From the NCBI GenBank assembly GCA_030603495.1, contig JAUVXR010000008.1, positions 1 through 64,000 on the forward strand: DNA of 64,000 bases, written 5' to 3'. Each line of letters starts with the position of its first letter. Position 1 is the stretch's first letter. Of the stretch, positions 30,702 through 51,986 are shown in pieces. A program made the position numbers and the translations under genes. The notes beneath the pieces were generated by a model that saw nothing but the letters and a program-made list of their open reading frames with translations, was not told the DNA's origin and did no database searches. Source of the stretch: a bacterium (GTDB taxonomy: Bacteria > Armatimonadota > Zipacnadia > Zipacnadales > Zipacnadaceae).

Positions 30702-32531
30702 ATGAACCGGTTGGTCCCGATAATTTGCCCCTTCTGCGGGGTTGGCTGTGGGATGTATTTGCAGTGCGAGAGTGAAGTCGCCGCGTCGGCAGTCCCCAGT
30801 CTCAGCGATCCGATATCCCAGGGCCAGTTATGTGTGCGGGGTTGGCAGCTAGGGGACACGTTGCGTAATGCGTCCCGCCTGACTTCCCCCCTTGTCAAAG
30901 GCGAGCCAGTCACTTGGTCCCAAGCTCTGGCTGAAGTTGCCGAGTTGCTTGGGGGCATCGAGAGCAAGCGCGTGGGTGTGGTGGCTGCTGGTCACCTCAC
31001 CAACGAGGAAGGCTTCGCTGTCCGCTACTTTGGCCGGCACGTCCTGGGCACATCCCACGTTGACAACTTCGGCCGCGCGGTGGACGGTCCCAGCCTTTGG
31101 GGCCTGCAATACAGCCTGGGTAAGCCGTTCCGGCGGCCTGCGCTAGACGAGATGGTTAACTGCGACTTGTTGGTCTGCCTCAATTCCGGTCTGCGGCACC
31201 TCAATGCGCAAGCTGGATCCTGGGTTAAGAAGGCCCAGCAGGCCGGCGCGCGTGTGGTGGTCCTCGATGAGCTGGATGATGGCCTGGCCAGCAGTGCTGA
31301 CATATATATCGAGCACGTACCGGCCGCTACGGCAGCGGTGCTCCAGCAGCTTTTGAAGGTCCTGGCCGGCGGAATAGGCTCAACTGCTGCGCTCGATATG
31401 AGCAATCTCGGTCCCGCAGCGCTTGCCGAGCAGCTTGACAGTGCTGCCAAATTGATAGATGCGGCCCAGCGGGTAGGAATCGTCTTCCCGATGCGGGCCT
31501 TCGCTACGCCTGAGCCAGGCATACTCGCCGCTGAGCTCGCCAAGCAGATCAATGCCTTGGGAAGCCAGCGGGCCGACATATTCGCGGTTGCCGGTACGCC
31601 CAACTCCGTGGGTCTCGAACAGATGGGTCTGATTCCCCAGGCGTCCGGCGAGACCGAAGCCCTGGGGCTATTTGAGATTCTCGAACCTGACCAGCCAGAA
31701 GTCGAAGCTATTGTTGTTGTCGGTGAAGAGCTGACCGGCTGGGTCGGCGAGTCCGGCGTCCAGGCGCTCGCGGAAGCAGCGAAACCCCTAATCGTGCTGG
31801 ACAGCTTTCGTACCCCGACCGCCGAGATCGCGGACGTGGCCCTGCCAATGACGGTGCACGCTGAGAAGGCAGGCAGCTTCACGGGGCTGGAGGGGACTGC
31901 CCGGTGGACGGGTCAGGCTGTCGTGCCCCCCCAAGAGGTCCGCTACTTGCCGCAAATACTTAACGAATTGGCTGCGCAACTAGGCAAAGAGGGCGGTGCG
32001 GCAGAGGTTGACGCTATCTGGCAGCAGATTAGCGCTGAAGTATCCGGTTACGAGGATATTGACCTGGGCGCGCTGCGGGACAGCGGGCAGCAGTCACTTG
32101 GCACAGTGTCGCTCGGGCAAGAGAGCGGGCCCGTGGCGCACGACTACCAGCCGCCGGAGCTGGAAGCCTCCGAGCAGTGGCGATATAAGATCGTGAGCCG
32201 GTATGACCGGAACTGGTGGATAAATGACTGGCGTATGCGGGCCATACCAGTGCTGTTCCGGGAGCTGCGCGACTGGGTGGCAGGATATGCAATGATGAAT
32301 CCGGGCGATCTGGAGAAGGAAGGAATACGGCCGGGCCGGCCTGGTCAGCTCACCACGCCCTACGGTGGCGCCGCAGTCGCTCTGCATCCCCACCCGGGCC
32401 TGCCCTCGGGATTAATCCTGCTGCCCGCGCATGAAAATGATCTGGCCGACCAGCTGCTGGGCCCCAGCCGCTACAACCGGCGCAGCGGCGGCCGGGTGCG
32501 CTTCCCGACGCCAGCCAGCCTGCAGACTTAA
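30702..32531 (+). CDS. Molybdopterin oxidoreductase-fold subunit lacking formate dehydrogenase active-site residues
   Basis: The 609-residue protein has the N-terminal 4Fe-4S motif CPFCGVGC (Cys 9, 12, 16) plus Cys 44 and continues as a formate-dehydrogenase/NuoG-like fold. VDNFGRAVDGPSLWGL (about 121-136) aligns without gaps to the E. coli FdhF active site, where Sec140-His141 stand; here they are Val127 and Asp128. The Lys next to the last cluster Cys is Arg (CVRG). The C-terminus has a molybdopterin-dinucleotide-type beta domain (MNPGDLEKEGIRPG). It is 100 or so residues shorter than FdhF. I infer an electron-relay or structural subunit of the hydrogenase complex rather than an active formate dehydrogenase. 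Twelve bases separate it from the next gene. Confidence 0.8.
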   Translation: MNRLVPIICPFCGVGCGMYLQCESEVAASAVPSLSDPISQGQLCVRGWQLGDTLRNASRLTSPLVKGEPVTWSQALAEVAELLGGIESKRVGVVAAGHLTNEEGFAVRYFGRHVLGTSHVDNFGRAVDGPSLWGLQYSLGKPFRRPALDEMVNCDLLVCLNSGLRHLNAQAGSWVKKAQQAGARVVVLDELDDGLASSADIYIEHVPAATAAVLQQLLKVLAGGIGSTAALDMSNLGPAALAEQLDSAAKLIDAAQRVGIVFPMRAFATPEPGILAAELAKQINALGSQRADIFAVAGTPNSVGLEQMGLIPQASGETEALGLFEILEPDQPEVEAIVVVGEELTGWVGESGVQALAEAAKPLIVLDSFRTPTAEIADVALPMTVHAEKAGSFTGLEGTARWTGQAVVPPQEVRYLPQILNELAAQLGKEGGAAEVDAIWQQISAEVSGYEDIDLGALRDSGQQSLGTVSLGQESGPVAHDYQPPELEASEQWRYKIVSRYDRNWWINDWRMRAIPVLFRELRDWVAGYAMMNPGDLEKEGIRPGRPGQLTTPYGGAAVALHPHPGLPSGLILLPAHENDLADQLLGPSRYNRRSGGRVRFPTPASLQT

Positions 32532-32543
32532 GAGGTGTAGTTA

Positions 32544-33620
32544 ATGGCCGAGCCGACGGCATACGTTCTGAAAGCAGAAGACCTGCGCCCGGCAGTTGAA
32601 CGGCTCTTTGAGCTTGGCGAGGAGGTCATTGCCCCCACTGCCCCCGCGCCCGGCGATGTCTTTTACCGACCGGTGCAGGGTGTAGATGAGATCGAGTTCG
32701 AGTTTGGCAATGCCCTGGTCTCGCCCGTGCAGTTTCTGATGCCGGCCAAGGAAGTGCTCTTCGAGTACGAGCTGCGGCCGGGCCAGCCGCCGGAGATAAC
32801 ACCGCCCGAGCCACCATCCGAGCGCATCCTGTTCGGTATCCGGCCCTGCGACATCGCCGCCATCGAGTGCCTGGACCAGTTCTTTATCGAACGCGAGCCG
32901 GTTGACACCCTGTATGAGCAACGCCGCCAGCGCACGACCCTGATTGCTCTGGCCTGCGCCGAGCCGGCCGCGGATACCTGCTTCTGCTCGTGCTGCGAGG
33001 GCACCGGGCCGGTCGCCGAGAGTGGCTACGATGTGCAACTCAGTCTGGTCGGGGAAGTCTATCTGGTTGAGTTTGCCACCGAAAAAGGCGAGCGTATCCG
33101 CCAGCAATGGCAGGATCTGCTCGAGCCGGCTACTGAAGAGCTCTTCGCCGCCCGCGAAGCGCAACTGCGGTATATGATTGAGAACCTGTTTGAGCCTGAC
33201 TCTAACCTGGCGGCGGCCATTCGCCGGGTGACCGGGGACAACGTGGATCCGGAGGCGTGGGAGGAAATCGGTGCGGACTGCTACAGTTGCGGGGCCTGTT
33301 CGTATCTCTGCCCGGTCTGCACCTGCTACGACGTGATGGATGTGCCCTACGATGAGAGCCGAGGCGCGCGGATCCGGCGCATGGACTCGTGTCGACTGGG
33401 TGGATTCACGCGGGAAGCTACCGGACATATTGCCCGGCCCACGGAGGCCTCGCGGGCCCGTTGGTACGCCTATCACAAACTCAGCCACGACTACCACGAG
33501 CAGCGCAGCAACTACGGCTGTGTGGGGTGCGGGCGCTGCATCATTGCCTGCCTGGGGCAGATCGGCATGCCGACGGTGTGCAAACTGATCCGCCAGCCCC
33601 AAGCAGAAAGAGCAAGCTGA
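32544..33620 (+). CDS. HydB/AsrA-like iron-sulfur subunit
   Basis: The 358-residue protein matches the beta subunit of sulfhydrogenase and anaerobic sulfite reductase subunit A. The N-terminal half contains FGIRPCDIAAIECLDQFF and the CFCSCC cysteine group. The C-terminal part has two 4Fe-4S motifs: CYSCGACSYLCPVC and CVGCGRCIIAC. In known complexes this subunit passes electrons between a FAD/NAD(P)H subunit and the catalytic site. The partner HydG-like gene lies two genes downstream. The stop overlaps the next start by one base (TGATG). Confidence 0.88.
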   Translation: MAEPTAYVLKAEDLRPAVERLFELGEEVIAPTAPAPGDVFYRPVQGVDEIEFEFGNALVSPVQFLMPAKEVLFEYELRPGQPPEITPPEPPSERILFGIRPCDIAAIECLDQFFIEREPVDTLYEQRRQRTTLIALACAEPAADTCFCSCCEGTGPVAESGYDVQLSLVGEVYLVEFATEKGERIRQQWQDLLEPATEELFAAREAQLRYMIENLFEPDSNLAAAIRRVTGDNVDPEAWEEIGADCYSCGACSYLCPVCTCYDVMDVPYDESRGARIRRMDSCRLGGFTREATGHIARPTEASRARWYAYHKLSHDYHEQRSNYGCVGCGRCIIACLGQIGMPTVCKLIRQPQAERAS

Positions 33621-34333
33621 TGTCACCAGAATTACTTGTTCTGACCATTACCGCCGCTTCACTAGGTTTCTTTCACACCTTGCTGGGGCCTGACCACTAC
33701 ATACCATTTATTGTAATGGCTCGGTCAGGAAGATGGTCCCTGGTCAAAACAACATGGGTGACTATCTTATGTGGTCTTGGTCATATACTAAGCTCTGTCC
33801 TGCTGGGCACCATTGGCATCGCGTTGGGTATTGGTGTTACAAAACTAGAAGGGGCAGAATCATTTCGTGGTGGCCTGGCGGCCTGGGCCCTCATTGCTTT
33901 TGGACTGGTGTATTTCGTTTGGGGTTTGCGCAGGGCTTTGAGGAATCGGCCGCACACGCATTCGCATGTTCATGAAGACCGCGCTGACCACATCCACAGA
34001 CATGTGCATACCCAAGACCACACGCACGTCCATGCGGCAGAGAAGAGCGCAAATCTTACGCCCTGGATTCTGTTCACGATCTTTGTCCTTGGCCCCTGTG
34101 AGCCGTTGATACCGATGCTTATGTATCCGGCAGCTAAGGGGAGCCTTTTCGGTGTGGTGTGGGTGACCGGTGTGTTCGGTGGGGTCACGATCATGACCAT
34201 GCTAAGCATTGTCCTGGTTTCGTCTTTGGGCGTAGTTCTTCTGCCGCTGAGACAATTGGAACGCTACACCCATGCGTTCGCGGGTGCCGCGATATGTCTT
34301 TGCGGAATGGCAATCCAGTTCCTTGGGTTGTAA
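33620..34333 (+). CDS. UreH/HupE-like membrane protein with His-rich loop, probable nickel handling
   Basis: The 237-residue protein has six or so hydrophobic segments. FFHTLLGPDHYIPFIVMARS at the start and LGPCEPLIPMLMYPAAKG later are the motifs of the UreH/TauE-like nickel and cobalt transporter group. Between them a loop (about residues 112-143) is packed with His (HTHSHVHEDRADHIHRHVHT), ideal for binding Ni or other metals. Placed inside a [NiFe]-hydrogenase locus, a nickel uptake or delivery role is the best inference. The gene splits hydB and hydG homologs and looks less GC-rich than its neighbours, so it may be a later insertion. Confidence 0.75.
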   Translation: MSPELLVLTITAASLGFFHTLLGPDHYIPFIVMARSGRWSLVKTTWVTILCGLGHILSSVLLGTIGIALGIGVTKLEGAESFRGGLAAWALIAFGLVYFVWGLRRALRNRPHTHSHVHEDRADHIHRHVHTQDHTHVHAAEKSANLTPWILFTIFVLGPCEPLIPMLMYPAAKGSLFGVVWVTGVFGGVTIMTMLSIVLVSSLGVVLLPLRQLERYTHAFAGAAICLCGMAIQFLGL

Positions 34334-34361
34334 TCCTGGGGGACAGGAAAAAGGAACAGCT

Positions 34362-35189
34362 ATGGCGCACGACGACTACATACCGATGCACGCTCGGGTC
34401 GCGGAGATCACCGACGAGACCCCGACCGAAAAGACCTTCACGCTGGAGTTTGTGGAAGACGAGCTTCCCTTCCGCCCCGGCCAGTTCTGTACAATTTCCG
34501 TATTGGGTGCCGGCGAGGCGCCCTTCTGTATTGCCTCCTCACCGGCCCGCAGTGACGCGATCCAGGTAACGGTTCGCCGCTATCCGCAAGGAACGGTCAC
34601 CTCAGCCCTTCACGAGTTGGCGGTTGGGGACTATGTCGGCGTACGTGGGCCGATGGGCAACGGCTTCCCCCTTGAGGAATTCACGGGCCGAGATATCCTG
34701 GTCGTCGCCGGGGGCATCGGCTTGCCTGCTGTCCGTGCCTCTATCCTGTATTTGCTCGAACATCGTAGTGCTTACCGTAATGTAACCTTGTTGTATGGCG
34801 CGCGCACACCGGCCGATCGGGTCTACAATGACGATCTGGCGCAGTGGGAGCAGTCGCCCGAGATAGTATGCAGACAGACCGTGGACATGAAGGACGAGGC
34901 TGATGACTGGGATGGCCACGTCGGTCTCATCACCACCTTGTTCGAGCCCCTGGACATGGACGGGCCGCAAACCACGGCCATAATAGTGGGCCCGGCAGTC
35001 ATGTATCCCTTCGTCGTGGCAGAATGTCGGCAGAAGGGTATCACAGACGAGAATATGTATTTCTCACTGGAAGCGCAGATGAAGTGTGGGGTGGGCAAGT
35101 GCGGCCACTGTGCGATGAAGGACAAGTACGTGTGTCTTGACGGGCCGGTCTTCACCTACGCGCAGATGCGGGAGATGCAGGAGTACTAG
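34362..35189 (+). CDS. HydG/AsrB-like FAD/NAD(P)-binding oxidoreductase subunit
   Basis: The ATG at 34362 follows AAAAGGA; the product has 275 residues. It has the ferredoxin-reductase/dihydroorotate-dehydrogenase-K layout. First comes the FAD domain (FRPGQFCTISVLG, FCIASSPA), then the NAD(P) domain (VVAGGIGLPAVRAS). A C-terminal 2Fe-2S site follows, with cysteines in KCGVGKCGHC and YVCLDGPVF. HydG homologs oxidise or reduce NAD(P)H in sulfhydrogenases. With the HydB-like gene it forms a diaphorase module, suggesting that the hydrogenase exchanges electrons with NAD(P)H. Confidence 0.9.
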   Translation: MAHDDYIPMHARVAEITDETPTEKTFTLEFVEDELPFRPGQFCTISVLGAGEAPFCIASSPARSDAIQVTVRRYPQGTVTSALHELAVGDYVGVRGPMGNGFPLEEFTGRDILVVAGGIGLPAVRASILYLLEHRSAYRNVTLLYGARTPADRVYNDDLAQWEQSPEIVCRQTVDMKDEADDWDGHVGLITTLFEPLDMDGPQTTAIIVGPAVMYPFVVAECRQKGITDENMYFSLEAQMKCGVGKCGHCAMKDKYVCLDGPVFTYAQMREMQEY

Positions 35190-35220
35190 CGTTAGCTATA
35201 ACCATTCCGGGAGGCTCCCA

Positions 35221-35628
35221 GTGGCAAAGATACTTGTCGTGGATGACGACCCGAAAATCACCCGCGTCATTCAGGTCGCTCTGCAGACCCAGGGTCACGA
35301 GACTCTCACGGCCAACTCGAAGGAGGAGGCCGAGGCGGTGGCGGTCGCCGAGAAACCTGACCTGATGATCGTTGATGTGATGATGCCCGAGGGAACCGAA
35401 GGGTTTCACCTGGTCTGGAAGATCCGCCAGATGGAAGATGAGGCCCTAAGAAACGTACCGATCATAATGGCCACCGGCATTCACGAGACGACCGAGTTGC
35501 GCTTCTATCCCGACCAGGCCGACGGGACTTACGAGCCCGGAGAGTTTCTGCCGGTCCAAGAGTGGATTGACAAGCCCATCGCGGTTGAGGGCCTGCTCAA
35601 GAAGGTCAGTGCTCTTCTCGAAGAATAG
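35221..35628 (+). CDS. CheY-like response regulator inside the hydrogenase locus
   Basis: The GTG at 35221 sits behind GGGAGG; the product is a 135-residue lone receiver domain. It has the acidic pocket (VVDDDPK), the phospho-acceptor Asp52 in LMIVDVMMPEG, a Thr in IIMATG and a conserved Lys in WIDKPI. It has no DNA-binding output domain, so it would act by protein contact. Lone receivers occur next to some other hydrogenase and complex I-like clusters. The possible kinase is the orphan CHASE2 kinase at 25232, but no sequence evidence pairs them. Confidence 0.85.
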   Translation: MAKILVVDDDPKITRVIQVALQTQGHETLTANSKEEAEAVAVAEKPDLMIVDVMMPEGTEGFHLVWKIRQMEDEALRNVPIIMATGIHETTELRFYPDQADGTYEPGEFLPVQEWIDKPIAVEGLLKKVSALLEE

Positions 35629-35675
35629 CGGCCGCGTCGCTTCCCGCAGGCGATGTCGCTCGGAATTAGCGCGAA

Positions 35676-36158
35676 ATGCTAGAAACGATAAGTCACCTGG
35701 CGCAGTACCCAAATCAGCATCTGCTGGTAGTAGGAGTGGGTAACCCCCTGCGCGGCGATGATGCCGCCGGGTTGATCCTGGGCGAGAAGGTCGCCACAAG
35801 GTTGGGGCTGGCATACCTGTGCTGTGAAGAGGTACCCGAGAATTATCTCGGGGAAATGTTGGACAATCCGGCGGACACGATCTTGGTGGTGGATGCCGTA
35901 GATATGAATGCCGAGGTGGGAGAGATCAAGCTGCTGCCCCTCGAGGAGTTGGCGGCGGAGAGTATCTCGACTCATAACTGCTCGGTGAGCCTCCTGGCGA
36001 CAGTGCTAGCTGGGGTGAAGGGCAAGGAGATGCTGGTGCTGGGTATTCAGCCTTACAGCCTCGGGTGGGGTCAGGACCTGACAGCGGCGATCAGCGTGGC
36101 GATTGAGCGGTTTGTGGCCGGTTTGCCGGAGGGGAACAGCGCCGCCCCGCCACAGTAG
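35676..36158 (+). CDS. hycI: Hydrogenase maturation endopeptidase (HycI type)
   Basis: HycI-type proteases remove the C-terminal tail of the hydrogenase large subunit after nickel insertion. The 160-residue protein has VVGVGNPLRGDDAAG, with the Asp ligand of nickel, then VVDAVDM and THNCSVS with the conserved His, and LGIQPYSLGWGQDLT. The large subunit encoded at 43245 has a matching 26-residue tail after its last cysteine motif, so this is its likely substrate. Confidence 0.93.
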   Translation: MLETISHLAQYPNQHLLVVGVGNPLRGDDAAGLILGEKVATRLGLAYLCCEEVPENYLGEMLDNPADTILVVDAVDMNAEVGEIKLLPLEELAAESISTHNCSVSLLATVLAGVKGKEMLVLGIQPYSLGWGQDLTAAISVAIERFVAGLPEGNSAAPPQ

Positions 36159-36281
36159 TCAATTCGGCAAGAATCACTGTGGGCAGTTTCCGAGCGCCTA
36201 CGGACCAACAAGTCACAGACCGCAGAAGTTGGACGCTACTTCAATGATGGTCCGTCGAGGCCAAGTGAGAAGTGGGGATAG

Positions 36282-37787
36282 ATGACAGCATTAGCTGAGA
36301 TATCAGCACGCGATTTGCTCGTGCCCCTGGTCGCCGCACCCCTGATCGGGGCGCTGCTGTGCGTATTTCTGAAGCGACGAGCCAGCGACTACGTGGCGGC
36401 GATCTTTGCCGTTATCACTCTGGTGTTAGCCGCAGGCGCGATCGGCAACCTGTTTACCGATCTGGACACTACTCACCGCCTGCCCCTGGGCTGGCTGGCT
36501 AACCTTGCCGGTGAAAGCGGCCCCGCGCCTCTGGTCTTTGAACTCTCGATTGATGCCCTCAGCGCTCTGATGCTGTTTGTGGTGACGGTGATAGGCTTCC
36601 TGGTGGTCATCTATTCCTCCGAATACCTCAGCCCGCGCAACGTCGAGCATCCCGTTACCAACGGCAAAGGCCGCTACTACGCCTGGCTGTTGTTTTTCGT
36701 AGGGGCGATGGTGGGCATAGCCCTGGCCGGCAACTTCTTCCAGTTGTTTATATTCTGGGAGATTACCACACTCTGTTCGTGGGCGCTGATCTCTTACTAT
36801 CAGGATGAGGCTTCGCTGAGGGCGGGTTTCAAGGCGCTGATAATGACCGCCGTCGGCGGGTTGTTCTTCCTGCTGGCGCTGGTGCTGATGTACTTGAACC
36901 TGGACACTGACCCATTCGCCTTTGATGCGCTGGGACGATTGGCGCCCGGCCTGCGCTCTTTGGTCTTTGTGTTTTTGTTGATCGCGGCCTGGGCCAAAGC
37001 CGCGCAGTTTCCCTTCTTCACCTGGCTGCCCGATGCGATGGCCGCGCCGACGCCGATTAGCTGCTATCTGCATGCCGCCGCTATGGTCAAGGCCGGGGTT
37101 TACCTGATCGCTCGAGTAGTCTCGGCCAGCTACGGCTTGTCCTACGGTGTGGGGCTGCTGAGCGGCATTATGGCCCTGGCTACGATCCTCATCGTCGTCT
37201 TCCTGTTTCTGTTTCAGGACGACCTTAAGAAGATATTGGCGCTCTCGACCATCAGCCATTTGGGCTATATTCTGATCGCCTGCGCTCTGGGGGTGTGGGG
37301 TTCGGCTACGGCCTTCCAGGGCGGGCTGCTGCATATCGCCGCGCACGGCTGTGGCAAGGGCCTGCTGTTCCTGTCGGTGGGGATGATCACGTATTTCACC
37401 GGCACCCGGCGCATTTCCGAGCTCTCAGGACTGGGTGCTCGCCTGCCAATTGTTGCCCTCGGCTTCTTCGTGGGAGCATTCACGGTTACCGGCGTGCCGC
37501 CGCTGGCCGGCTTCTGGAGCAAATTCCTTATCCTCACCGGCGGCCTGGAGTTGGGCGGGTTCGGGGCAGTGATTGCTATTCTGTTGCTAGTGGAAAGTAT
37601 GATCGCCTTCGGATTCTTCCTGTGGGTCGGTCAACGAGTGTTCTTCGGGGCGCCTTCTTTCGATATGCCGCAGGGCAAGGGTGTCGCCTGGCCGATGACC
37701 ACGGCGATCATCATCCTGGCTGTGCTTTGCCTGGCGGTGACGCTGTTCGCCTTGCCGGTAATCCAACACATACCGCTGGGGATGTGA
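36282..37787 (+). CDS. Antiporter-like hydrogenase subunit (HyfD-like)
   Basis: The 501-residue polytopic protein (about 14 membrane segments) belongs to the NuoL/M/N-MrpA/D family. It has KAAQFPFFTWLPDAMAAPTP with the Lys and Pro of the broken helix, HAAAMVKAGVYLIARV, and Glu in FWEITTLCSWALIS. Such subunits pump protons or sodium. By size and the locus it matches HyfD, although the exact pairing with HyfD or HyfB is by inference. It lies first in the membrane gene series. Confidence 0.85.
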   Translation: MTALAEISARDLLVPLVAAPLIGALLCVFLKRRASDYVAAIFAVITLVLAAGAIGNLFTDLDTTHRLPLGWLANLAGESGPAPLVFELSIDALSALMLFVVTVIGFLVVIYSSEYLSPRNVEHPVTNGKGRYYAWLLFFVGAMVGIALAGNFFQLFIFWEITTLCSWALISYYQDEASLRAGFKALIMTAVGGLFFLLALVLMYLNLDTDPFAFDALGRLAPGLRSLVFVFLLIAAWAKAAQFPFFTWLPDAMAAPTPISCYLHAAAMVKAGVYLIARVVSASYGLSYGVGLLSGIMALATILIVVFLFLFQDDLKKILALSTISHLGYILIACALGVWGSATAFQGGLLHIAAHGCGKGLLFLSVGMITYFTGTRRISELSGLGARLPIVALGFFVGAFTVTGVPPLAGFWSKFLILTGGLELGGFGAVIAILLLVESMIAFGFFLWVGQRVFFGAPSFDMPQGKGVAWPMTTAIIILAVLCLAVTLFALPVIQHIPLGM

Positions 37788-42979: not shown

Positions 42980-43066
42980 CGGGTCGGAGCTATGCACTAG
43001 CCAACTAGAGGGCCAGATGCGGCCGGTGATAAGAAAAAGATGACTTGTAGTGTCGAGAAGTGGTAG

Positions 43067-43159
43067 CACCTGACCGGCTTTCGGGGCTTTGTGCCCGTCG
43101 CCGATGAAGAGTATGAATTGGTGCGGCAGCTTATGGCCCAGGCGGGGGTGCCGTACTGA
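43067..43159 (+). pseudogene. Short coding remnant between hyfF and hyfG
   Basis: A 30-residue frame (HLTGFRGFVPVADEEYELVR and on to AQAGVPY) with good codon usage ends at TGA and is blocked upstream by TAG. It has no ATG, GTG or ribosome binding site at its head. It looks like the tail of a lost gene in the 265-bp gap. I do not recognise the family. The remainder of this gap shows no gene. Confidence 0.3.
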
Positions 43160-43244
43160 ACAAGTATTAACAAGTCGGCGTCTTATGAAGCAGAGCAGCA
43201 TGTGTAACATGCTAACATAATGGGCGATGGAAAGAGAATCTATC

Positions 43245-44912
43245 ATGACTGCACAATCGTTTGGTGACAGTCTGAAAAACAAATTCGGAGACAAGCTGTT
43301 GGAGGTCGAGGCAGCGGGTGTGGACCAGTTGTATGTGAGGATCGTTCCCGAGTGTCTAGTCGAGGTTGCTGACTATCTTTACAACGATGAAGGCTGTCGG
43401 TTTGTGATCAACTCCGGCACCGACCGTCGCGAGCACAACGGCAAGTTTCTGATCACTCACTTCTTTGCCCAGGATGAGGAGAATCTGTACATCGCTGTCC
43501 ACGCCGAGGTGGATGGCAACGACCCCCGTATTGACTCAATCACTCCCGTCGTTCCGGCCGCGAACTGGTCTGAGCGGGAAGCCCGGGATATGGTGGGGGT
43601 AGCACCTGAGGGGCATCCCGATCCGCGTCGGCTGGTGCTGGCTGATGACTGGCCGGAGGACCTCTACCCGTTGCGTACCGACGTTGAGCACGGGATCAAG
43701 CCCGAGTCCTGCCCAGATGTGGCTATGCCGCTTGTTGAGCCGCCGGAGGGCGCCAGCGTGGTGCCGATCGGCCCGTATTTCCCGGTGCTTGAAGAGCCCG
43801 CATATTTCCGCATCTTCGTCGAGGGTGAAACCGTGGTGGGTGCGGATTACCGGGGCTTTTACAATCATCGTGGTGTGGAAAAACTCGGCTGCAGTGTCCT
43901 GACTTACAATCAGATACCGTTCATGGCAGAGCGCATCTGCGGCATCTGCGGGTTCGTCCATAGTTGCTCCTACTGCCAGGCTGTGGAGCGGGCCGCGGGC
44001 ATCGAGGTGCCGGAGCGCGCCGAATATGTCCGCACCATAATGTTGGAGGTGGAGCGTGTACAGAGCCATCTGCTGTGGTTAGGTATTGCCGGCCACATTA
44101 TCGGCTTCGACACGGTGCTGATGCAGACCTGGCGGATGCGCGAGCCGCTGATGTGGCTGTGCGAGCGGATTACGGGAAACCGCAAGACTTACGGGATGAA
44201 TCTGATCGGCGGTGTGCGCCGCGACATCACGGCTGATGTTCACGGTGACATTACCGATGTACTTGCTAAGATCGAGAAGGAGTGGCGCGCCCTGTACGAT
44301 GCTATTCCTGGCGACCCGACGCTGATGGCCCGGCTCAAGGGTACTGGGGAGCTGCCCGAGGAGAAGGCCCGCGAATTGGCGGTAGCCGGGCCAACTGCTC
44401 GCGGCTCCGGCGTTGCCATTGATGTGCGAGTGGACCACCCGTATGCGGCCTACGATCGGCTCGATGTCAAGAAGTGCGTCTATGACAGTTGCGACAATGT
44501 GGCGCGCGTGCTGGTCCGTTTGGATGAGACGCTGGACGCGATCGACATCATCCGGCAAGCCTTGGATGATATGCCCGACGGCCCCATAATGGCCGAGATT
44601 GGCGAGGAGATCCCCGCTGGCCTTGAGGCGATGAGCGCGGTCGAAGCACCCCGGGGTGAGGTCTTTCACTGGGTACTCACCGGCGAGGAGAACCGTCCCG
44701 AGCGCTGGCGCGTGCGGGCTCCTACCTATGCGAATCTGCAGGCCGTGCCGACCATGGTAACGGGCGACGCGCTGGCCGACGTGCCTATTGATGTGGGCAG
44801 TTTCGACCCTTGCTTCTCGTGCACCGAGCGAATGGAGGTCACTGACCTGAAGTCGGGGATCATTCGAGTCTATACCCAAGATGAAGTATTGGCTTTGAGG
44901 CAATCCAAGTAG
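43245..44912 (+). CDS. hyfG: Group 4 [NiFe]-hydrogenase large subunit (HyfG), NuoC-NuoD-type fusion
   Basis: HyfG is the catalytic subunit that makes or splits H2. I choose ATG 43245 (555 residues) because GAG lies eight bases upstream; ATG 43227 is an in-frame alternative. Residues about 1-170 form a NuoC-like domain, and the remainder is NuoD-like. All four nickel-ligand cysteines are present: RICGICGFVH near 230 (L1) and DPCFSCTER near 520 (L2). The 26 residues after CTER form the removable maturation tail. This separates it from hydrogenase-like relatives (Ehr) that have lost these cysteines. It is preceded by a gap with a coding remnant. Confidence 0.95.
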   Translation: MTAQSFGDSLKNKFGDKLLEVEAAGVDQLYVRIVPECLVEVADYLYNDEGCRFVINSGTDRREHNGKFLITHFFAQDEENLYIAVHAEVDGNDPRIDSITPVVPAANWSEREARDMVGVAPEGHPDPRRLVLADDWPEDLYPLRTDVEHGIKPESCPDVAMPLVEPPEGASVVPIGPYFPVLEEPAYFRIFVEGETVVGADYRGFYNHRGVEKLGCSVLTYNQIPFMAERICGICGFVHSCSYCQAVERAAGIEVPERAEYVRTIMLEVERVQSHLLWLGIAGHIIGFDTVLMQTWRMREPLMWLCERITGNRKTYGMNLIGGVRRDITADVHGDITDVLAKIEKEWRALYDAIPGDPTLMARLKGTGELPEEKARELAVAGPTARGSGVAIDVRVDHPYAAYDRLDVKKCVYDSCDNVARVLVRLDETLDAIDIIRQALDDMPDGPIMAEIGEEIPAGLEAMSAVEAPRGEVFHWVLTGEENRPERWRVRAPTYANLQAVPTMVTGDALADVPIDVGSFDPCFSCTERMEVTDLKSGIIRVYTQDEVLALRQSK

Positions 44913-44941: not shown

Positions 44942-45442
44942 GTGCTCAGCAAGCTTAAAGAAGCTATACTATGTTTCGCAGCCGGGATAGTGACGCTCAG
45001 GTATCCGTTTGCGCCCCACGACCCCGAGGGCGAAGAGGGCGAATTTCGTGGTTATCCGGAGGTAGACGTCAACCGGTGCATTGGCTGCGGCGGCTGCGCG
45101 GCAGTTTGCCCGGCTCGGGCTATTATGATTGAGGACATTGATCAAACCACGCGCCGGATAACCCGTCTGCGCGAGCGCTGTATCTACTGCGGGCGCTGTG
45201 CCGAGGTCTGTCCGCAGGACGCTATCACCATGACCAAGCAGTTCGAACTCGCTTCGGACAAGGTGCGGGAGGATCTCGAGCATGTTTGCGAGGTCTTCAT
45301 GGCTACCTGTAAGCGCTGCGGGCGCTGCTACGAGCCCGCCTCGCCGCTGGATAAGATTATGGAGCCAGGCTACCGGCACGACGAGATCAAGCGCGGCGGC
45401 CAGGAGCCGCTGTACGAGCCAGTTGAGGCGTCCAGCGAATAG
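44942..45442 (+). CDS. hyfH: Ferredoxin-like hydrogenase subunit (HyfH)
   Basis: The 166-residue protein carries two 4Fe-4S motifs (CIGCGGCAAVCPARA and CIYCGRCAEVCPQDA) and resembles NuoI/HyfH. A further CKRCGRC group near residue 122 is an extra that many relatives lack. The start is GTG after GGGAGG at a wide spacing. It connects the small subunit with the electron-transfer module. Confidence 0.92.
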   Translation: MLSKLKEAILCFAAGIVTLRYPFAPHDPEGEEGEFRGYPEVDVNRCIGCGGCAAVCPARAIMIEDIDQTTRRITRLRERCIYCGRCAEVCPQDAITMTKQFELASDKVREDLEHVCEVFMATCKRCGRCYEPASPLDKIMEPGYRHDEIKRGGQEPLYEPVEASSE

Positions 45443-45487: not shown

Positions 45488-46045
45488 GTGGGCTTTTTCA
45501 AGAACTTGTGCAACAAGGCCTTCCCCAAGTCATTGTGGGTCTATCACACCAATACCGGGGCCTGCAATGGCTGCGATATTGAGGTAATTGACGTACTGAC
45601 GCCGTACTATGATGTCGAGCGCTTCGGGATCAAGCTGGTGGGCTCGCCGCGCCACGCCGACGTGCTGCTGGTTTGCGGTCCGGTGACTCGCCAGATAGTC
45701 CCGGCCCTCAAGCGGCTCTACGAGGCTGTGCCCGCTCCCAAACTGGTCATCGCTATTGGGTCGTGTGCCTCGGGAGGAGGCATCTGGTTTGATAGCTACA
45801 ATATCGTCGGTGGCGCCGACACGATCCTGCCCGTGGATTACTATATTCCCGGTTGCCCGCCGCGGCCCGAGGCTATTCTCCACGGAGTCGCCGTGGCCCT
45901 GGGACTCGCCGAGAAGAAGGTAGCCCGCGAGCACATTAAGCAGCTCATTGACCGCAATGAGTCTATCTCCGTTGAGGATGATACTGGAGCCGAAGAGGTC
46001 GTGCCGGGGGACGAGGTGCCAGCGGAGCTGCCGACTTCGAAATAG
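45488..46045 (+). CDS. hyfI: [NiFe]-hydrogenase small subunit (HyfI, NuoB-like)
   Basis: HyfI holds the 4Fe-4S cluster closest to the nickel site. The 185-residue protein has TGACNGCDIEVID near 25, AIGSCASGGG near 97 and YIPGCPPRPEAI near 125, providing the four cysteine ligands. The GTG start at 45488 follows AGGAGG. Its 40-residue C-terminal tail is acidic. It ends the forward block and converges with hypA, 11 bases away. Confidence 0.94.
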   Translation: MGFFKNLCNKAFPKSLWVYHTNTGACNGCDIEVIDVLTPYYDVERFGIKLVGSPRHADVLLVCGPVTRQIVPALKRLYEAVPAPKLVIAIGSCASGGGIWFDSYNIVGGADTILPVDYYIPGCPPRPEAILHGVAVALGLAEKKVAREHIKQLIDRNESISVEDDTGAEEVVPGDEVPAELPTSK

Positions 46046-46056: not shown

Positions 46057-46422
46057 CTACGAATTGCCGGCTTCCTCCGCGGAATCGGCCAGCTCTGCGC
46101 TCAGTATCTGAAGCTCGAAGCCCGACTCTATTGACAAATCAAGACTCCCGCACTTGCAGCACTTCACAAACGGCTGGTATTCCTCCGTTACAGTGCTACA
46201 CTCGTTACACCGGGCATGCACAGGCATTTGCTTAATGTGCAGCGTAGCGCCCTCCAGGTCAGTACCCTTGATGACGTGGGGCCAGGCTTCACTCAGCAGT
46301 TCCGGGACCACTGTGCTCAGTGGGCCGATAGCGACGGTGGCGCTCAAGAGCTTCCGGTGGTGTTGCTGGGCGAGTTCGGCAAGCTGGTGTGCGATGCTGC
46401 TGGCGATAGAGAATTCATGCAT
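46057..46422 (-). CDS. hypA: Hydrogenase nickel incorporation protein HypA
   Basis: HypA delivers nickel to the hydrogenase large subunit together with HypB. The 121-residue protein starts MHEFSIA, giving the His2-Glu3 nickel site, and has a zinc site with CNEC and CKCG cysteines near residues 72-96. It is the only hyp gene on the minus strand, separated from hypB by a 213-base divergent intergenic region. Confidence 0.94.
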   Translation of the reverse strand: MHEFSIASSIAHQLAELAQQHHRKLLSATVAIGPLSTVVPELLSEAWPHVIKGTDLEGATLHIKQMPVHARCNECSTVTEEYQPFVKCCKCGSLDLSIESGFELQILSAELADSAEEAGNS

Positions 46423-46476: not shown

Positions 46477-46492
46477 GCACCTCAATCAGTAG

Positions 46493-46528: not shown

Positions 46529-46635
46529 TGTCGCGAGTCTCGCGTAACTGTACAGTGTGCGCGCGGAGGGTACGCATCCCAAGGAGAAGAACTACCACAC
46601 AGTATTAGACTTGTCACGGGATTGGGCGAGTAGCG

Positions 46636-47292
46636 ATGAGAGTCGAGTTGATGACTGATATTCTGGGCGACAACGATGCTGCTGCGCGGGAGAATAAGCA
46701 GCTTTTCGACGCCCACGGCGTTCTCGCAGTTGACTTCATGGGCAGCCCGGGCAGCGGCAAGACCAGCCTGCTGGAGCAGGTGGTCAGGTCGCTGGACGAT
46801 GTGACCGTCAAAGTCATTGAGGGCGACGTGGCAACGGCTAACGATGCTCGGCGAATCGAAGAGGCCGGGGCGGAGGCCTTTCAGATTAACACCGGCGGTA
46901 TGTGTCATCTAAATGCGCCGATGATCGCCCGGGCGGCGGGGAAGATAGACCTGGCGGCCACGGATCTGCTCCTCATCGAGAATGTGGGTAATCTGGTTTG
47001 CCCGGCAGCGTTCAAGTTGGGTGCGCACTTTCGTCTGGTAGTCTCCAGTATCCCCGAAGGCGACGATAAACCGGAGAAATACCCAGCGGCCTTCCGGGGT
47101 TGCGATGGTGTCATCTTGAATAAGCTTGACCTGGTCCCCCACTCGCCTTTTGACGTGAAGAAGTTCTGGGATCTATGTCGCCAGCTCCAGCCCCAGGCGG
47201 TGCAGTTTGCCACTTCGTGTGTAGCTGGTGAAGGTATCGGGCAGTTGAGCGAATGGCTAAGGCGACAACACTCACAACTGACCGGCGGATAA
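46636..47292 (+). CDS. hypB: Hydrogenase nickel incorporation GTPase HypB
   Basis: HypB is a SIMIBI-class GTPase that works with HypA to insert nickel. The 218-residue protein has the P-loop GSPGSGKTSLLEQ near residue 37, a VIEGDVAT switch, a GGMCHL metal-cysteine motif, and NKLD. It lacks the His-rich nickel-storage tail present in some HypB proteins. The His-rich membrane protein at 33620 may supply that store. Its end overlaps hypF by 40 bases. Confidence 0.94.
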   Translation: MRVELMTDILGDNDAAARENKQLFDAHGVLAVDFMGSPGSGKTSLLEQVVRSLDDVTVKVIEGDVATANDARRIEEAGAEAFQINTGGMCHLNAPMIARAAGKIDLAATDLLLIENVGNLVCPAAFKLGAHFRLVVSSIPEGDDKPEKYPAAFRGCDGVILNKLDLVPHSPFDVKKFWDLCRQLQPQAVQFATSCVAGEGIGQLSEWLRRQHSQLTGG

Positions 47293-49547
47293 GGCGCGAG
47301 ATCACCATCACCGGTATCGTGCAGGGAGTTGGCTTTCGGCCCTTCATTCACCGCCTTGCGCAGAAGCACGGCATCGCGGGGACCGTGCACAACTTCACTG
47401 GTGGTGTGGTGATCGAGGCGGAAGGCCAGCCCGAAGCTGTGGCGGCGTTTATTGGCGACCTGCCTCGGGAGAAGCCGCCAATCGCGCGAATTGACGACAT
47501 CACCGTGGTGGAACTGCCTGCCCTCGGCGATGCCGAATTCGTGATCACCCCCAGCCGCGAGGCTGCCGGCGGCACGATTCTGCTCTCCCCTGACGTCGCT
47601 ATGTGCGACGATTGCCTACGCGAACTGTTCGACCCGGACGATCGGCGCTACCGCTATCCGTTTATCAACTGCACCAACTGCGGCCCACGTTTTACTATCA
47701 TACAGAGCGTTCCCTACGATCGGCCCAATACGACGATGCGGCCGTTTTCGATGTGCCGCCACTGTCAGGCTGAATACGACGACATTGGTGACCGCCGCTA
47801 TCACGCCCAGCCCAATGCGTGTCCTGTCTGCGGTCCCGAGGTGGAGCTAATCTTTGGTGATGAGCGCTGCAGCGCCGATGAAGCCATCGAGCAGGCGATT
47901 GAGCTACTGGCTGCGGGCAAGATTGTCGCGATAAAGGGACTGGGTGGCTTTCATCTGGCCTGCGACGCTACTAGCCAGGACGCCGTGCAGGAGCTGCGCC
48001 GGCGCAAGGGGCGCGAAGAGAAGCCGCTGGCTATAATGTCGACGTCATTGGAGGAGATGGAGAGCTACTGCCACCTCACCGAGGAAGCGCAAGAGCTGTT
48101 GACGGGCGCGATTCGGCCGATTGTGCTGCTGAAGAAGAGAACCTCGGTCATTGCTCCCTCAGTTGCGCCCGACAGCAAGTACTACGGGGTGATGACGCCG
48201 TATACACCGCTGCATCACCTGCTGCTGGCGGATGACCGTCTCCCGGCGCTGGTGATGACTAGCGGCAACCTCAGCGAGGAGCCGCTGGCTACGCAGAATG
48301 ATGAGGCGCGCGGTCGCCTCGCCCACATCGCTGACGGATTCCTGCTGCACGACCGGGAGATTGAGATCGGCTGCGACGATTCGGTGGTCAGACCGACCAA
48401 GTTGGGGCCGATAGTTATGCGACGGGCGCGCGGCTACGTTCCTTTCCCGGTCACGCTGAAGCGGGATCTGGGCCGGGTGCTGGCGGTCGGCGGGCACCTG
48501 AAGAATACGTTCTGCCTCACCGATGGGCGTAACGCCTTCTTGAGCCAGCATATCGGCGACCTGGAAGACGCCAACACACTGGACTATTTCCAGTGGTGTG
48601 TTGACCATTTGCAGGACGTACTGCGCGTTGAGCCGGAGCTGATTGCCCACGATCTGCACCCGGACTATCTCAGCAGCCACTATGCTCAGCGGCTGGCCGA
48701 GGAGCGTGGGCTGGACGCGGTTGCGGTGCAGCACCATCACGCCCACATCGCTGCGTGTATGGCCGAGCATGCTGCTGTGGGGCCGGTCTTGGGCATCGCC
48801 TGTGATGGTACTGGTTATGGAGCGGATGGGACGGTCTGGGGCTGCGAGATCCTGCTCAGCGACTACGACGACTACACTCGTGCGGCGCACCTAGAGTACG
48901 TGCCGCTGCCCGGTGGCGAACAGGCTATCAAAGAGCCATGGCGGGTGGCAGCGGTCTACCTACACCGACAGGGGTTGCTCGATGCCGATATTGATTTCTG
49001 CCACAATCTCGACCGGCCTCGCTGGCGGCTGCTGGAGCAGATGATCGAAAAGAATATCAACTGCCCGTCTGCTTCGAGTGCAGGACGGTTGTTCTCGGCG
49101 GTCTCCGCGCTTGTCGGATTGCGCTCGGTGGACGCCTACGAGGGGCAGTCGGCAATGATGCTGGAAGCCGCCGCAACCGATGCGGAGGGCGTGTACAGCT
49201 ACGAAATCACTGAGAGCGACGGTATGCTGGTAATGTCGCCCGGCTTGATGTTCGTGGAGATTGTAGCTGACTTGGAAGCCGGCAAAGACACTGGCGAAAT
49301 CTCCGTCCGCTTTCATAATACCTTCGTCGCCATGGTAGGCGACGCGGCCGTGCGAGTTGCGAAAAAGACGGGTATCAAGCAGATCGCGATGTCGGGGGGG
49401 ACCTTCCAGAACGAGCTGGTGCTGCACGGCCTGCCCCAGCGCCTCACAGAAGTCGGCCTCGAAGTGCTTATTCACCAGGAAACACCGCCCAATGACGGCG
49501 GGCTGGCGCTAGGGCAGGCAGTGGTGGCCTCAGCAAGGAACTACTGA
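47253..49547 (+). CDS. hypF: Carbamoyltransferase HypF
   Basis: HypF makes the carbamoyl group from which the cyanide ligands of the NiFe site are built. The 764-residue protein has the full domain series. An acylphosphatase domain comes first (GIVQGVGFRPFIHR), then two zinc fingers (CDDCLREL, CTNCGPRF, CRHCQAEY, CPVCGP). A YrdC-like domain follows (KGLGGFHLACDA), and then the carbamoyltransferase domain (VQHHHAHIAACM, CDGTGYGADG). The 40-base overlap with hypB indicates coupled translation. Confidence 0.96.
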   Translation: MAKATTLTTDRRIRREITITGIVQGVGFRPFIHRLAQKHGIAGTVHNFTGGVVIEAEGQPEAVAAFIGDLPREKPPIARIDDITVVELPALGDAEFVITPSREAAGGTILLSPDVAMCDDCLRELFDPDDRRYRYPFINCTNCGPRFTIIQSVPYDRPNTTMRPFSMCRHCQAEYDDIGDRRYHAQPNACPVCGPEVELIFGDERCSADEAIEQAIELLAAGKIVAIKGLGGFHLACDATSQDAVQELRRRKGREEKPLAIMSTSLEEMESYCHLTEEAQELLTGAIRPIVLLKKRTSVIAPSVAPDSKYYGVMTPYTPLHHLLLADDRLPALVMTSGNLSEEPLATQNDEARGRLAHIADGFLLHDREIEIGCDDSVVRPTKLGPIVMRRARGYVPFPVTLKRDLGRVLAVGGHLKNTFCLTDGRNAFLSQHIGDLEDANTLDYFQWCVDHLQDVLRVEPELIAHDLHPDYLSSHYAQRLAEERGLDAVAVQHHHAHIAACMAEHAAVGPVLGIACDGTGYGADGTVWGCEILLSDYDDYTRAAHLEYVPLPGGEQAIKEPWRVAAVYLHRQGLLDADIDFCHNLDRPRWRLLEQMIEKNINCPSASSAGRLFSAVSALVGLRSVDAYEGQSAMMLEAAATDAEGVYSYEITESDGMLVMSPGLMFVEIVADLEAGKDTGEISVRFHNTFVAMVGDAAVRVAKKTGIKQIAMSGGTFQNELVLHGLPQRLTEVGLEVLIHQETPPNDGGLALGQAVVASARNY

Positions 49548-49549
49548 AG

Positions 49550-49768
49550 ATGTGTGTCGCGCTACCGTGCAAGCTGATTGAGATAGACGGCAACCGGGGC
49601 GTTGCTGAGTTGGGCGGCAGCCAGGTGAAGATGCGCCTGGACTTGCTGCCCGATGTTCGGTTGGGCGACTACGTCCTGGTCCACGCGGGCTTTGCCATCG
49701 AGAAACTTGACGAAGAAGAAGCCCACAATACTCTCAGTATGCTCGATGAGGTAGGCTGGTGGTGCTAG
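49550..49768 (+). CDS. hypC: Hydrogenase assembly chaperone HypC
   Basis: The 72-residue protein begins MCVALPCKLIEIDG, with the essential Cys2 and the HypC motif, and DYVLVHAGFAIEKLD near the end. HypC carries the Fe(CN)2CO group with HypD. It starts only two bases after the hypF stop. Confidence 0.95.
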   Translation: MCVALPCKLIEIDGNRGVAELGGSQVKMRLDLLPDVRLGDYVLVHAGFAIEKLDEEEAHNTLSMLDEVGWWC

Positions 49769-49849
49769 CGCACACTTCACCGGGATGCCAGTCAGCAACA
49801 TGGTAGGTGTAGCGGCGCTGCCGGACGTGGCGGCGCACTGTACAAAGAT

Positions 49850-50944
49850 ATGAGATATATTGACGAGTACCAGGATGGCGACAAGGCGCGAGAGATAGCT
49901 GCGCAGATTGCGGAGGTCGTCGGCGAGCCGCTGGCCTTTATGGAGGTTTGCGGCACGCATTCTCATGCCGTTGCTCGGTACGGGCTGAGTGAGATGTTTC
50001 CTGAGCAACTACGCCTGATCTCCGGTCCGGGCTGCCCGGTCTGCGTGACCCCGCCGGAGGTCATTGATGCGGGCATCGAACTGGCCCGCGAGGGCATCTG
50101 GCTGGCGATCTTCGGCGATATGATGAACGTGCCGGGCAGCCAGGGCAGCCTCAGTGAGGTCCAGGCCCAGGGCGGGCAGGTGCGCGTAATCTACTCGCCG
50201 ATGCAGGCTGTCGAGTGGGCCCAGGAGAATCCCCACGAGCAGGTGGTCTTTATGGGCGTGGGCTTCGAGACCACGGCTCCCAGTGTGGCCGTCGGCATCA
50301 GCGAGGCCAATGAACTGGGCCTAAAGAACTTCACCGTTCTAGTTGCGCACAGGCTCATTCCCCCGGCGATGGAGGCGTTGGTCAGCCAGCCCGACGTGCG
50401 GATTGATGGCTTCTTGTGTCCGGGACACGTCAGCGCCATCATCGGCTCAAAGCCCTACCAGCCGCTGGCCGACCGGGGCATTCCCTGTGTGATCGCGGGC
50501 TTCGAGCCGGTGGACGTGCTCCAGGCGGTCTATATGCTGGCACGAATGTGCCAGCAGGGCGAAGCCCGGGTCATGATCCAGTACAGGCGCGTGGTAAGGG
50601 CGGAGGGCAACCCGATTGCGCGGGAGAAAGTGGCGGAGGTCTTCGAGGTGGCCGACTGCCGGTGGCGGGGCCTGGGGATGATGCCTGACAGCGGGCTGCG
50701 GCTCCGCGAAAAATACCGGGATTTCGACGCTGAAGCGCGCTTTGCGTTGGACTTGCAGGCAGCGCCGGAGCCACCCGGCTGCGAATGTGGCGCTGTTCTG
50801 CGGGGCGCCAAACGCCCCACGGACTGCGGGCTGTTCGGTACGGCGTGTCTCCCTGACCACCCGATAGGCCCATGTATGGTTTCGTCGGAGGGCGCTTGCG
50901 CCGCCGTGTATCAGTACGAGGCAGTACGAGACGGTAACCGCTGA
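49850..50944 (+). CDS. hypD: Hydrogenase formation protein HypD
   Basis: HypD is the iron-sulfur scaffold on which the Fe(CN)2CO unit is built. The 364-residue protein has all expected motifs: EVCGTHSHAVARYGL, ISGPGCPVCVTPPE, FMGVGFETTAPS, and the cluster cysteines near the end (CECGAVLRGAKRPTDCGLFG and CMVSSEGACAA, each in its usual place). It lies 80 bases after hypC. Confidence 0.95.
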   Translation: MRYIDEYQDGDKAREIAAQIAEVVGEPLAFMEVCGTHSHAVARYGLSEMFPEQLRLISGPGCPVCVTPPEVIDAGIELAREGIWLAIFGDMMNVPGSQGSLSEVQAQGGQVRVIYSPMQAVEWAQENPHEQVVFMGVGFETTAPSVAVGISEANELGLKNFTVLVAHRLIPPAMEALVSQPDVRIDGFLCPGHVSAIIGSKPYQPLADRGIPCVIAGFEPVDVLQAVYMLARMCQQGEARVMIQYRRVVRAEGNPIAREKVAEVFEVADCRWRGLGMMPDSGLRLREKYRDFDAEARFALDLQAAPEPPGCECGAVLRGAKRPTDCGLFGTACLPDHPIGPCMVSSEGACAAVYQYEAVRDGNR

Positions 50945-50972
50945 GCCGGCTTAGGGGACGACTAGCTTCGTT

Positions 50973-51986
50973 ATGAAAAAGCCGCAAGTGATTACACTCG
51001 CCCACGGCGCGGGTGGGCTGCTCTCTCAACAGCTCATCGCCGAGGAGTTTGCACCGCTGCTCATGCGCGGGGGCCAAGGGCTCAACGATGCTGCGGTTGT
51101 CTCTTTCGGCGACATTCGAGTGGCGTTCAGTACCGATTCGTTCACGGTTTCCCCGCTGTTCTTTCCCGGTGGTGACATCGGTAGCCTGGCCGTACACGGT
51201 ACGGTCAACGACATTGCCATGATGGGCGCCGAGCCACGCTTCTTGTCGCTCGCCTTCGTCATCGAAGAGGGCTTCCCCGCAGCGGACTTGCACCATCTGG
51301 GACAGTCGGTGGCAGCGGCCACTGAGCATTGCGGTGTGACGGTGGTCACTGGCGATACCAAGGTGGTAGAGCGCGGCGCGGCCGACGGGCTGTTCATCAA
51401 CACCTCCGGGCTGGGCGTTGTCTCCCCGCAGGCCGATATTGAACCCGCACGGGTGCAGCCCGGCGACGCGGTACTCATCAACGGGACGATTGCCCAGCAT
51501 GGCACCGCGGTGATGTGCGCGCGGGAGGAGCTGGATGTCGGTGGGGAAATCGTCAGTGATTCGGCGTCGGTGGCCGACGTGGTGCGCGAGTTGATCGCGG
51601 CGCTGGGCGAGAAGGTGCACGCGCTGCGCGATCCGACACGCGGCGGAGTTGCGGCGACGCTGAACGAGGTCGCTGGTTTGGCGGGTGTGACCATCGAGAT
51701 TGATCAGGCCGAGCTGCCGATTGCGCCCCAGGTAGCCGGCGTCTGCGAGATCCTGGGCTTGGACCCGCTCCAGGTGGCCTGCGAGGGCCGGTTTGTCGCC
51801 TTCGTGGACGGTTCAGTGGCCGAGCAGGCACTGGCCACAATGAGGTCGCTGAATACCGGGCGAGAGGCGGCCATAATTGGTGAAGTGACGACTGCCGGAT
51901 CAGCACGGGTGCAGATGCGCACACCCTTGGGAACGACGTGCCTCGTGCAGATGCCTACCGGTGAGTTACTCCCCAGGATCTGCTAA
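50973..51986 (+). CDS. hypE: Hydrogenase maturation protein HypE
   Basis: HypE dehydrates the thiocarboxamide on its C-terminal cysteine to make the cyanide ligand. The 337-residue protein has an AIR-synthase-like fold (LAHGAGGLLSQQLI, DSFTVSPLFFPGGDIG, DPTRGGVAATLNE). It ends in PRIC, the required terminal cysteine. It completes a full hypABCDEF set at this locus. Confidence 0.96.
   Translation: MKKPQVITLAHGAGGLLSQQLIAEEFAPLLMRGGQGLNDAAVVSFGDIRVAFSTDSFTVSPLFFPGGDIGSLAVHGTVNDIAMMGAEPRFLSLAFVIEEGFPAADLHHLGQSVAAATEHCGVTVVTGDTKVVERGAADGLFINTSGLGVVSPQADIEPARVQPGDAVLINGTIAQHGTAVMCAREELDVGGEIVSDSASVADVVRELIAALGEKVHALRDPTRGGVAATLNEVAGLAGVTIEIDQAELPIAPQVAGVCEILGLDPLQVACEGRFVAFVDGSVAEQALATMRSLNTGREAAIIGEVTTAGSARVQMRTPLGTTCLVQMPTGELLPRIC

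Follow-up and report, generated by a model that had tools for sequence, protein, structure and literature searches.

The gene cluster at positions 30702-51986 of this DNA raises the question of which electron donor feeds a membrane hydrogenase that is encoded beside a formate dehydrogenase (FDH)-like gene. The window (the whole stretch analysed, 64,000 nucleotides of contig JAUVXR010000008.1) belongs to an armatimonadotal metagenome-assembled genome of 2.67 Mb in 62 contigs, about 94% complete. The locus was read from open reading frames (ORFs) and from matches to families and profiles, and all of its genes except hypA lay on the + strand. A group 4 [NiFe]-hydrogenase of the Hyf type was found downstream of genes for a MopB-like protein, a HydB-like iron-sulfur protein and a HydG-like flavoprotein, a gene set far beyond chance. 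The products of the locus probably form a single membrane complex that acts as an NAD(P)H:H+ oxidoreductase (a hydrogenase), pumps ions and resembles complex I with a replaced head; we put the probability of this sequence-based reading at about 0.7.

The MopB-like protein

The first gene (30702-32531) encoded a MopB-like protein of 609 aa, recognized by family matches, alignment and structural model, with an Fe4S4 motif and Val replacing the catalytic Cys/Sec. Against TIGR01591 (Fdh-alpha) it scored 164 bits (cut-off 666), and the match covered the N-terminal part of the FDH models. The predicted structure had the full FDH fold, with a mean pLDDT of 89. Structure comparison of this model with E. 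coli FdhF gave VIA Z 37.5, with about 576-599 residues aligned. In the alignment to FdhF, the U140-H141 pair corresponded to Val-Asp. Selenocysteine was rejected for this protein, as the aligned residue was Val and no in-frame TGA was present.

A total of 76 non-redundant MopB sequences encoded beside HydB/HydG (HydBG) and seven from loci without HydBG were compared in FdhF numbering. Among the 76, the [4Fe-4S] ligands Cys8, Cys11 and Cys15 were kept in all and Cys42 in 75. At position 140, Cys was found in one sequence; the other 75 had other residues with no shared replacement, and His141 and Arg333 were retained in minorities only. Catalytic Cys or Sec was present in 6/7 of the MopBs from loci without HydBG. 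Since the cluster cysteines were kept and the catalytic residues were lost, selection acts on the cluster-binding part and not on the active site, as in NuoG of complex I. The single HydBG-linked MopB with Cys at position 140 (L115) had no neighbouring His/Arg and was rejected as a clear active FDH. In the phylogenetic tree, the catalytic FDHs (FdhF and six others) formed one clade (SH-aLRT 99), and all HydBG-linked MopBs fell outside it. The sequence-only reading had described an FDH-fold protein without its active site, and the alignments bear this out for the window and for nearly the whole family.

These results bear on the possibility of a formate hydrogenlyase in which MopB still oxidises formate and HydBG merely adds an NAD(P) branch. 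The fully FDH-like fold (Z 37.5) would suit such an enzyme, and loci of this kind may carry an fdhF-hyf annotation; the "fdhF-hyf formate hydrogenlyase" wording used for SbA1, a locus known to us by that wording alone, illustrates how such clusters can get reported (PMC6018796). However, the Cys/Sec of the catalytic FDH of group 4a formate hydrogenlyases was absent from the window protein (V140, D141), the loss extended to 75 of the 76 sequences with His and Arg not kept either, and in loci where the FDH is still active, it is accompanied by HycB and not by HydBG. We consider formate oxidation by this complex very improbable.

The HydB/HydG module

The HydB-like protein (358 aa; 32544-33620) was identified by profile matches and was the only copy in the genome. 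It scored 143-150 bits with the HydB, ShyB and AsrA models, reaching 150 bits for HydB (cut-off 750) and 143 bits for AsrA (cut-off 323). The HydG-like protein (275 aa; 34362-35189), predicted to carry flavin adenine dinucleotide (FAD), NAD(P) and [2Fe-2S] sites, scored 177-209 bits with the AsrB, HydG and ShyC models, reaching 177 bits for HydG (cut-off 650) and 209 bits for AsrB (cut-off 289). Because both proteins scored well under the curated cut-offs for group 3b sulfhydrogenase and the sulfite reductase AsrABC, they were placed in a separate branch of those families.

Comparison with the solved sulfhydrogenase I (SHI) of Pyrococcus furiosus (9nez) showed that HydB matched the beta subunit (9nez_B; E 2e-39) and HydG matched 9nez_C (E 8e-50). 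HydG retained the FAD, NAD and [2Fe-2S] residues, with ligands common to the P. furiosus subunits. Among 75-81 homologues, the cluster cysteines of HydB were conserved at 0.92-1.00, and the [2Fe-2S] cysteines and the GGxG glycines of the NAD domain of HydG at 1.00, the HydG set numbering 81. The earlier assignment of an iron-sulfur HydB and an FAD/NAD(P) HydG thus agrees with both the profiles and the structure matches.

All loci were searched with HyfA and HycB. A HycB/HyfA-like ferredoxin was found in 12 loci without HydBG, the catalytic-FDH loci included, and none was found in the HydBG clusters proper or in the window, where the four-cluster ferredoxin typical of group 4a was thus not matched. 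One distant HycB-like match was seen in L167, several kb beyond the cluster. As the ferredoxin occurs only where HydBG is lacking, HydB seems to occupy the position of HycB, and the exchange of HycB/HyfA for HydBG looks like a module swap at the sequence level.

Ferredoxin as the main donor is the most serious rival to NAD(P)H. The complex would then be a ferredoxin-linked energy-converting (Mbh-like) hydrogenase, and HydG/HydB would be a side branch or a head that confurcates electrons from ferredoxin to NAD(P) and H2. Many group 4 enzymes normally take their electrons from ferredoxin, and HydB bears ferredoxin-like [4Fe-4S] motifs. An Mbh-like function was also proposed for a Saganbacteria locus with the same genes, according to the excerpted text of PMC6349859. 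Against this, all HydBG loci with adequate coverage encoded a HydG with its full complement of cofactor residues, and no ferredoxin subunit of the HyfA/HycB type was found. HydG also resembled the single-FAD gamma subunit of SHI and a second flavin subunit was not encoded, which makes bifurcation less likely. The sequence-only reading had left the donor as NAD(P)H or ferredoxin; the family invariably has the FAD/NAD subunit and lacks the HycB/HyfA-type connector, which speaks for NAD(P)H, and we regard the ferredoxin-linked enzyme as unlikely.

Other possible partners of HydBG were sought in the genome. The Pfam search revealed no other [NiFe]- or [FeFe]-hydrogenase, and the sole PF00374 match was HyfG, so that no HydA/HydD of a group 3b enzyme accompanied HydBG. 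The only other relative of HydG was PyrK-like, its gene lying next to one for dihydroorotate dehydrogenase. With a single HydB and this PyrK-like gene as the sole HydG relative, HydBG has no other obvious partner, and its sharing with another enzyme of the genome was ruled out. No AsrC siroheme subunit was noticed among the ORFs of the locus, although no search was aimed at AsrC. No NuoE/NuoF-type flavin mononucleotide head was found at the locus; the only Complex1_51K protein of the genome was encoded close to an FDH-like gene on a different contig (C61).

The hydrogenase core

The profile matches identified the antiporter-like subunits HyfB (37795-39828) and HyfF (41480-42979), the NuoH-like membrane subunit HyfC (39856-40749), the membrane subunit HyfE with its NuoK-like part (40785-41450), HyfH (44942-45442) and the NuoB-like small subunit HyfI (45488-46045), the last two also by alignment. 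The third antiporter-like subunit, HyfD (36282-37787), scored 494 bits against a cut-off of 430 for hydrogenase-4 subunit D. Together with HyfG (43227-44912), the large [NiFe] subunit with a fused NuoC-like domain, the full Hyf-type complex with three antiporter-like subunits that had been claimed was recovered.

HyfG kept the CGIC and DPCFSC motifs. All four nickel ligands (C238, C241, C529 and C532) could be aligned, were retained as the sequence-only reading had stated, and were invariant in 17 aligned sequences. After CTER it had a tail for a HycI-type maturation protease, which was identified by profile match in the same cluster (35676-36158). The nickel cysteines, the NuoH-like, antiporter-like and NuoB-like subunits, the C-terminal extension, HycI and HypA-F together mark the enzyme as a group 4 [NiFe]-hydrogenase. 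In contrast, the nickel cysteines are absent from the hydrogenase-related complex Ehr.

In 5/111 HyfG genes, in-frame TGA codons were found at nickel-ligand cysteines, and the frame stayed open afterwards. Both cysteines of the N-terminal motif were replaced (RI-TGA-GI-TGA-G) in L094 (and L025) and L117, and a single TGA at the N-terminal CxxC (RICGI-TGA-G) was seen in L120, L126 and L127. Hairpins shortly downstream of the TGA codons had z values of -2.9 to -3.1 in two cases and were weak in two. This pattern suggests selenocysteine in the N-terminal motif of these group 4 hydrogenases. The excerpted text of a 2026 selenoproteome review lists no such group 4 case (PMC13188914).

The residues of the complex I/Mrp proton path were scored by alignment to NuoM positions 144, 234, 265 and 407. 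HyfB, HyfD and HyfF of the window all kept the Glu of transmembrane helix (TM) 5 and the Lys residues of TM7, TM8 and TM12, and the complex therefore seems equipped for coupling. In the same alignment, E. coli HycC had no TM7 Lys. In HyfB of four single-antiporter loci (L128, L139, L150 and L153), the TM5 Glu was changed to Gln and the Lys residues were kept, hinting at altered coupling in that clade.

HyfH had two [4Fe-4S] motifs and a C-terminal CxxCxxC motif (C123, C126 and C129), which was invariant in 67 HyfH sequences from HydBG loci. The corresponding positions in E. coli HycF/HyfH are Cys, Cys and Pro, which belong to a metal site close to FdhF that had not been predicted (PMC9474812).

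Distribution and phylogeny

The order MopB-HydB-HydG-HycI-Hyf recurred in other, independent genomes from this taxonomic order and phylum. An assembly join, which the sequence-only reading had named as a possible refutation, was ruled out by the identical gene order in independent assemblies. The 201 Armatimonadota genomes sampled included 41 with such a HyfG (42 loci), and linkage was counted by hand. In 34/42 loci, HydB was encoded no more than about 13 kb away on the same contig; five of the remaining loci were split between contigs, two were FDH-type (G016:C81 and G017) and one was in a 61%-complete genome.

The HyfG alignment was also scanned against 85,000 species genomes. Among the best 80 loci, MopB-HydB-HydG-Hyf was found in Acidobacteriota, Verrucomicrobiota, Spirochaetota, Pseudomonadota (including the cultured Lamprocystis purpurea and Chitinibacter tainanensis), Bdellovibrionota, Gemmatimonadota, Planctomycetota, Methylomirabilota, Aminicenantes and KSB1, and HydB/HydG with Hyf was also found in a Chloroflexota record and smaller candidate phyla. 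Outside Armatimonadota, the ordered set thus occurred in at least about a dozen other phylum-level lineages; as the loci were picked by their likeness to the window, these counts are not population frequencies. The search for the ordered set, which had been put forward as a check, confirmed that the four parts recur together. The gene set inferred from one locus was borne out, but it is a widespread family rather than a design peculiar to that locus. The input genes were also looked for elsewhere without Hyf and were not found, every HydBG-linked MopB locus of sufficient length carrying Hyf.

The 76 rows of HydBG loci in the HyfG tree were divided between two large sets, and a third set held E. 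coli Hyc/Hyf and the archaeal enzymes. One HydBG set had a single antiporter-like subunit (HyfB only), and the other, which included the window, mostly had three. The bacterial members of these two sets without visible HydBG either had a contig end within about 4 kb upstream or were FDH-type.

The distribution also bears on whether the three input genes form a separate soluble enzyme that merely adjoins the hyf genes. HydBG pairs do function in soluble enzymes (sulfhydrogenase and Asr), and both window proteins matched sulfhydrogenase subunits (9nez). However, the linkage is conserved over about a dozen lineages, HycB is lost exactly where HydBG appears, and the locus encodes no other catalytic partner. 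Such an arrangement is the least probable of the alternatives considered.

Other genes of the cluster

The maturation genes downstream, all assigned by profile match, were hypA (46057-46422, - strand), hypB (46636-47292), hypF (47253-49547), hypC (49550-49769), hypD (49850-50944) and hypE (50973-51986). All genes named in the sequence-only reading were present as ORFs at their positions with matching families. Its list had omitted HypA, HypC, a transmembrane protein (33617-34333) and a single-domain response regulator (35221-35628).

The transmembrane protein was His-rich, with weak DmeF and DsbD_2 matches. Its gene lay between hydB and hydG with an overlapping start, and it is perhaps a nickel transporter, Ni/Co transport being possible from the matches. 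BLAST with the window protein revealed none at this place in the other loci. The response regulator was identified by profile match and occurred at the same place in G004 and G006. It was the lone response regulator inside the cluster, and a CHASE2-GAF-PAS histidine kinase was encoded upstream of the cluster (25232-28102). Between hyfF and hyfG, positions 42980-43226 held a remnant resembling the C-terminus of a PhnD-like lipoprotein gene; intact copies of this gene were found between hyfF and hyfG in L032 and L034.

Comparison with known systems

E. coli formate hydrogenlyases 1 and 2 (Hyc/Hyf with FdhF; group 4a; 7z0s/7z0t, PMC9474812) shared with the window the HyfB-I core, the NuoC-fused large subunit, HycI and an FDH-fold protein, with HyfG 41-42% identical. 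FdhF is joined to the E. coli hydrogenase via HycB, with its four [4Fe-4S] clusters, and HycF (PMC9474812), whereas the window had a dead FDH, no HycB/HyfA, added HydB and HydG, and a HyfG of a separate clade. The FDH-linked group 4 enzymes of Thermococcus (4b-type; e.g. L166 and L174) also had MopB and a Hyf-like core, with HyfG 46-49% identical, but carried a catalytic FDH with Cys and a HycB-like ferredoxin and lacked HydBG. P. furiosus SHI (group 3b) also has HydB and HydG, and their cofactor ligands agree with those of the window proteins; the window lacked HydA/HydD, and its HydBG would feed a group 4 membrane hydrogenase.

The window shared with respiratory complex I a dead MopB subunit (NuoG), an NAD(P)H head, NuoB/C/D/H/I and three antiporters with the key residues, but had HydG/HydB in place of NuoE/F and a Ni-Fe site with H2 in place of quinone. 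Compared with NuoG, the window MopB kept the C-terminal FDH domain and had one Fe-S cluster motif only.

A literature search for the gene combination returned one direct precedent, the Saganbacteria RX5A group 4 locus reported in 2019 and termed enigmatic (PMC6349859). In the excerpted text, it comprises a group 4 hydrogenase, Mrp-like subunits, asrA, asrB and a molybdopterin oxidoreductase that defied classification as an FDH; unlike the window, it also lists cooF. That text does not describe the active-site loss, the wide spread or the module swap. For Armatimonadota genomes including Zipacnadia, the portion of PMC10290634 consulted lists group 4b, 4g, 1a and 3b hydrogenases and makes no mention of a HydBG module.

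Proposed mechanism and direction

The gene content and order, the conserved ligands, the loss of the FDH active site and the module swap were read from the sequences; from these we infer that the parts form one complex, that NAD(P)H is its donor and that the reaction is coupled to ion movement, as well as the route and direction of electron flow. In the proposed mechanism, HydG would accept a hydride from NAD(P)H at its FAD and pass single electrons to its own [2Fe-2S] cluster, and the [4Fe-4S] clusters of HydB would relay them onward. The MopB-like protein would serve as a docking scaffold and possibly a one-cluster relay, the role of NuoG in complex I. HyfH and HyfI would then conduct the electrons to HyfG, whose Ni-Fe site would reduce protons to H2, and HyfC with HyfB, HyfD and HyfF would couple this chemistry to ion movement across the membrane. 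The dead FDH, intact nickel site, HydBG ligands and antiporter residues fit the earlier picture of complex I with a replaced head.

Several points weigh against this reading. NADH and NADPH are indistinguishable from such data, HydBG could exchange electrons with ferredoxin instead, and MopB may either take part in electron transfer or sit to one side of it, as cluster N7 does in complex I.

The complex probably re-oxidises NAD(P)H at low H2, and reverse operation is possible. A mainly uptake enzyme, which would oxidise H2, with or without help from the ion gradient, to supply NAD(P)H for acetogenesis or CO2 fixation, differs in direction and overlaps with the favoured reading. Hydrogenases of this kind are often reversible. 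The genome carries two Prismane-family (CODH/Hcp) genes, and in another armatimonadotal genome, genes that read by eye as carbon monoxide dehydrogenase (CODH)/acetyl-CoA synthase and corrinoid-protein genes (L099:147-6098) lay directly upstream of the cluster. However, direction is not readable from sequence, and the inferred lifestyle of Zipacnadia relatives is largely heterotrophic in the portion of PMC10290634 consulted. Predominant uptake is doubtful, with a somewhat better chance than the ferredoxin-linked enzyme.

Significance

An ancestor of complex I of the formate hydrogenlyase type has been suggested (PMC9474812), and by analogy the HydBG-Hyf family may be taken as its natural parallel. 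We propose tentatively, at somewhat less than even odds, that the family, found in a dozen or more phyla, is a major class of [NiFe]-hydrogenases not described before, whose members depend on NAD(P)H and pump ions. In it, an FDH would have become a dead NuoG-like scaffold and a flavin head would have taken over from formate as the electron source, a present-day parallel to the passage from a formate-hydrogenlyase-like ancestor to complex I. The gene system is well supported, and the enzyme role is a prediction. If the reading is true, many uncultured anaerobes would have a direct link between NAD(P)H and H2 that is coupled to an ion gradient. The family is also a warning that a dead FDH-like gene can lead to mistaken "formate hydrogenlyase" calls in metagenomes. 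The family would also be an independent case of the change seen in complex I (a dead MopB, a flavin head and antiporters), testable in cultured species.

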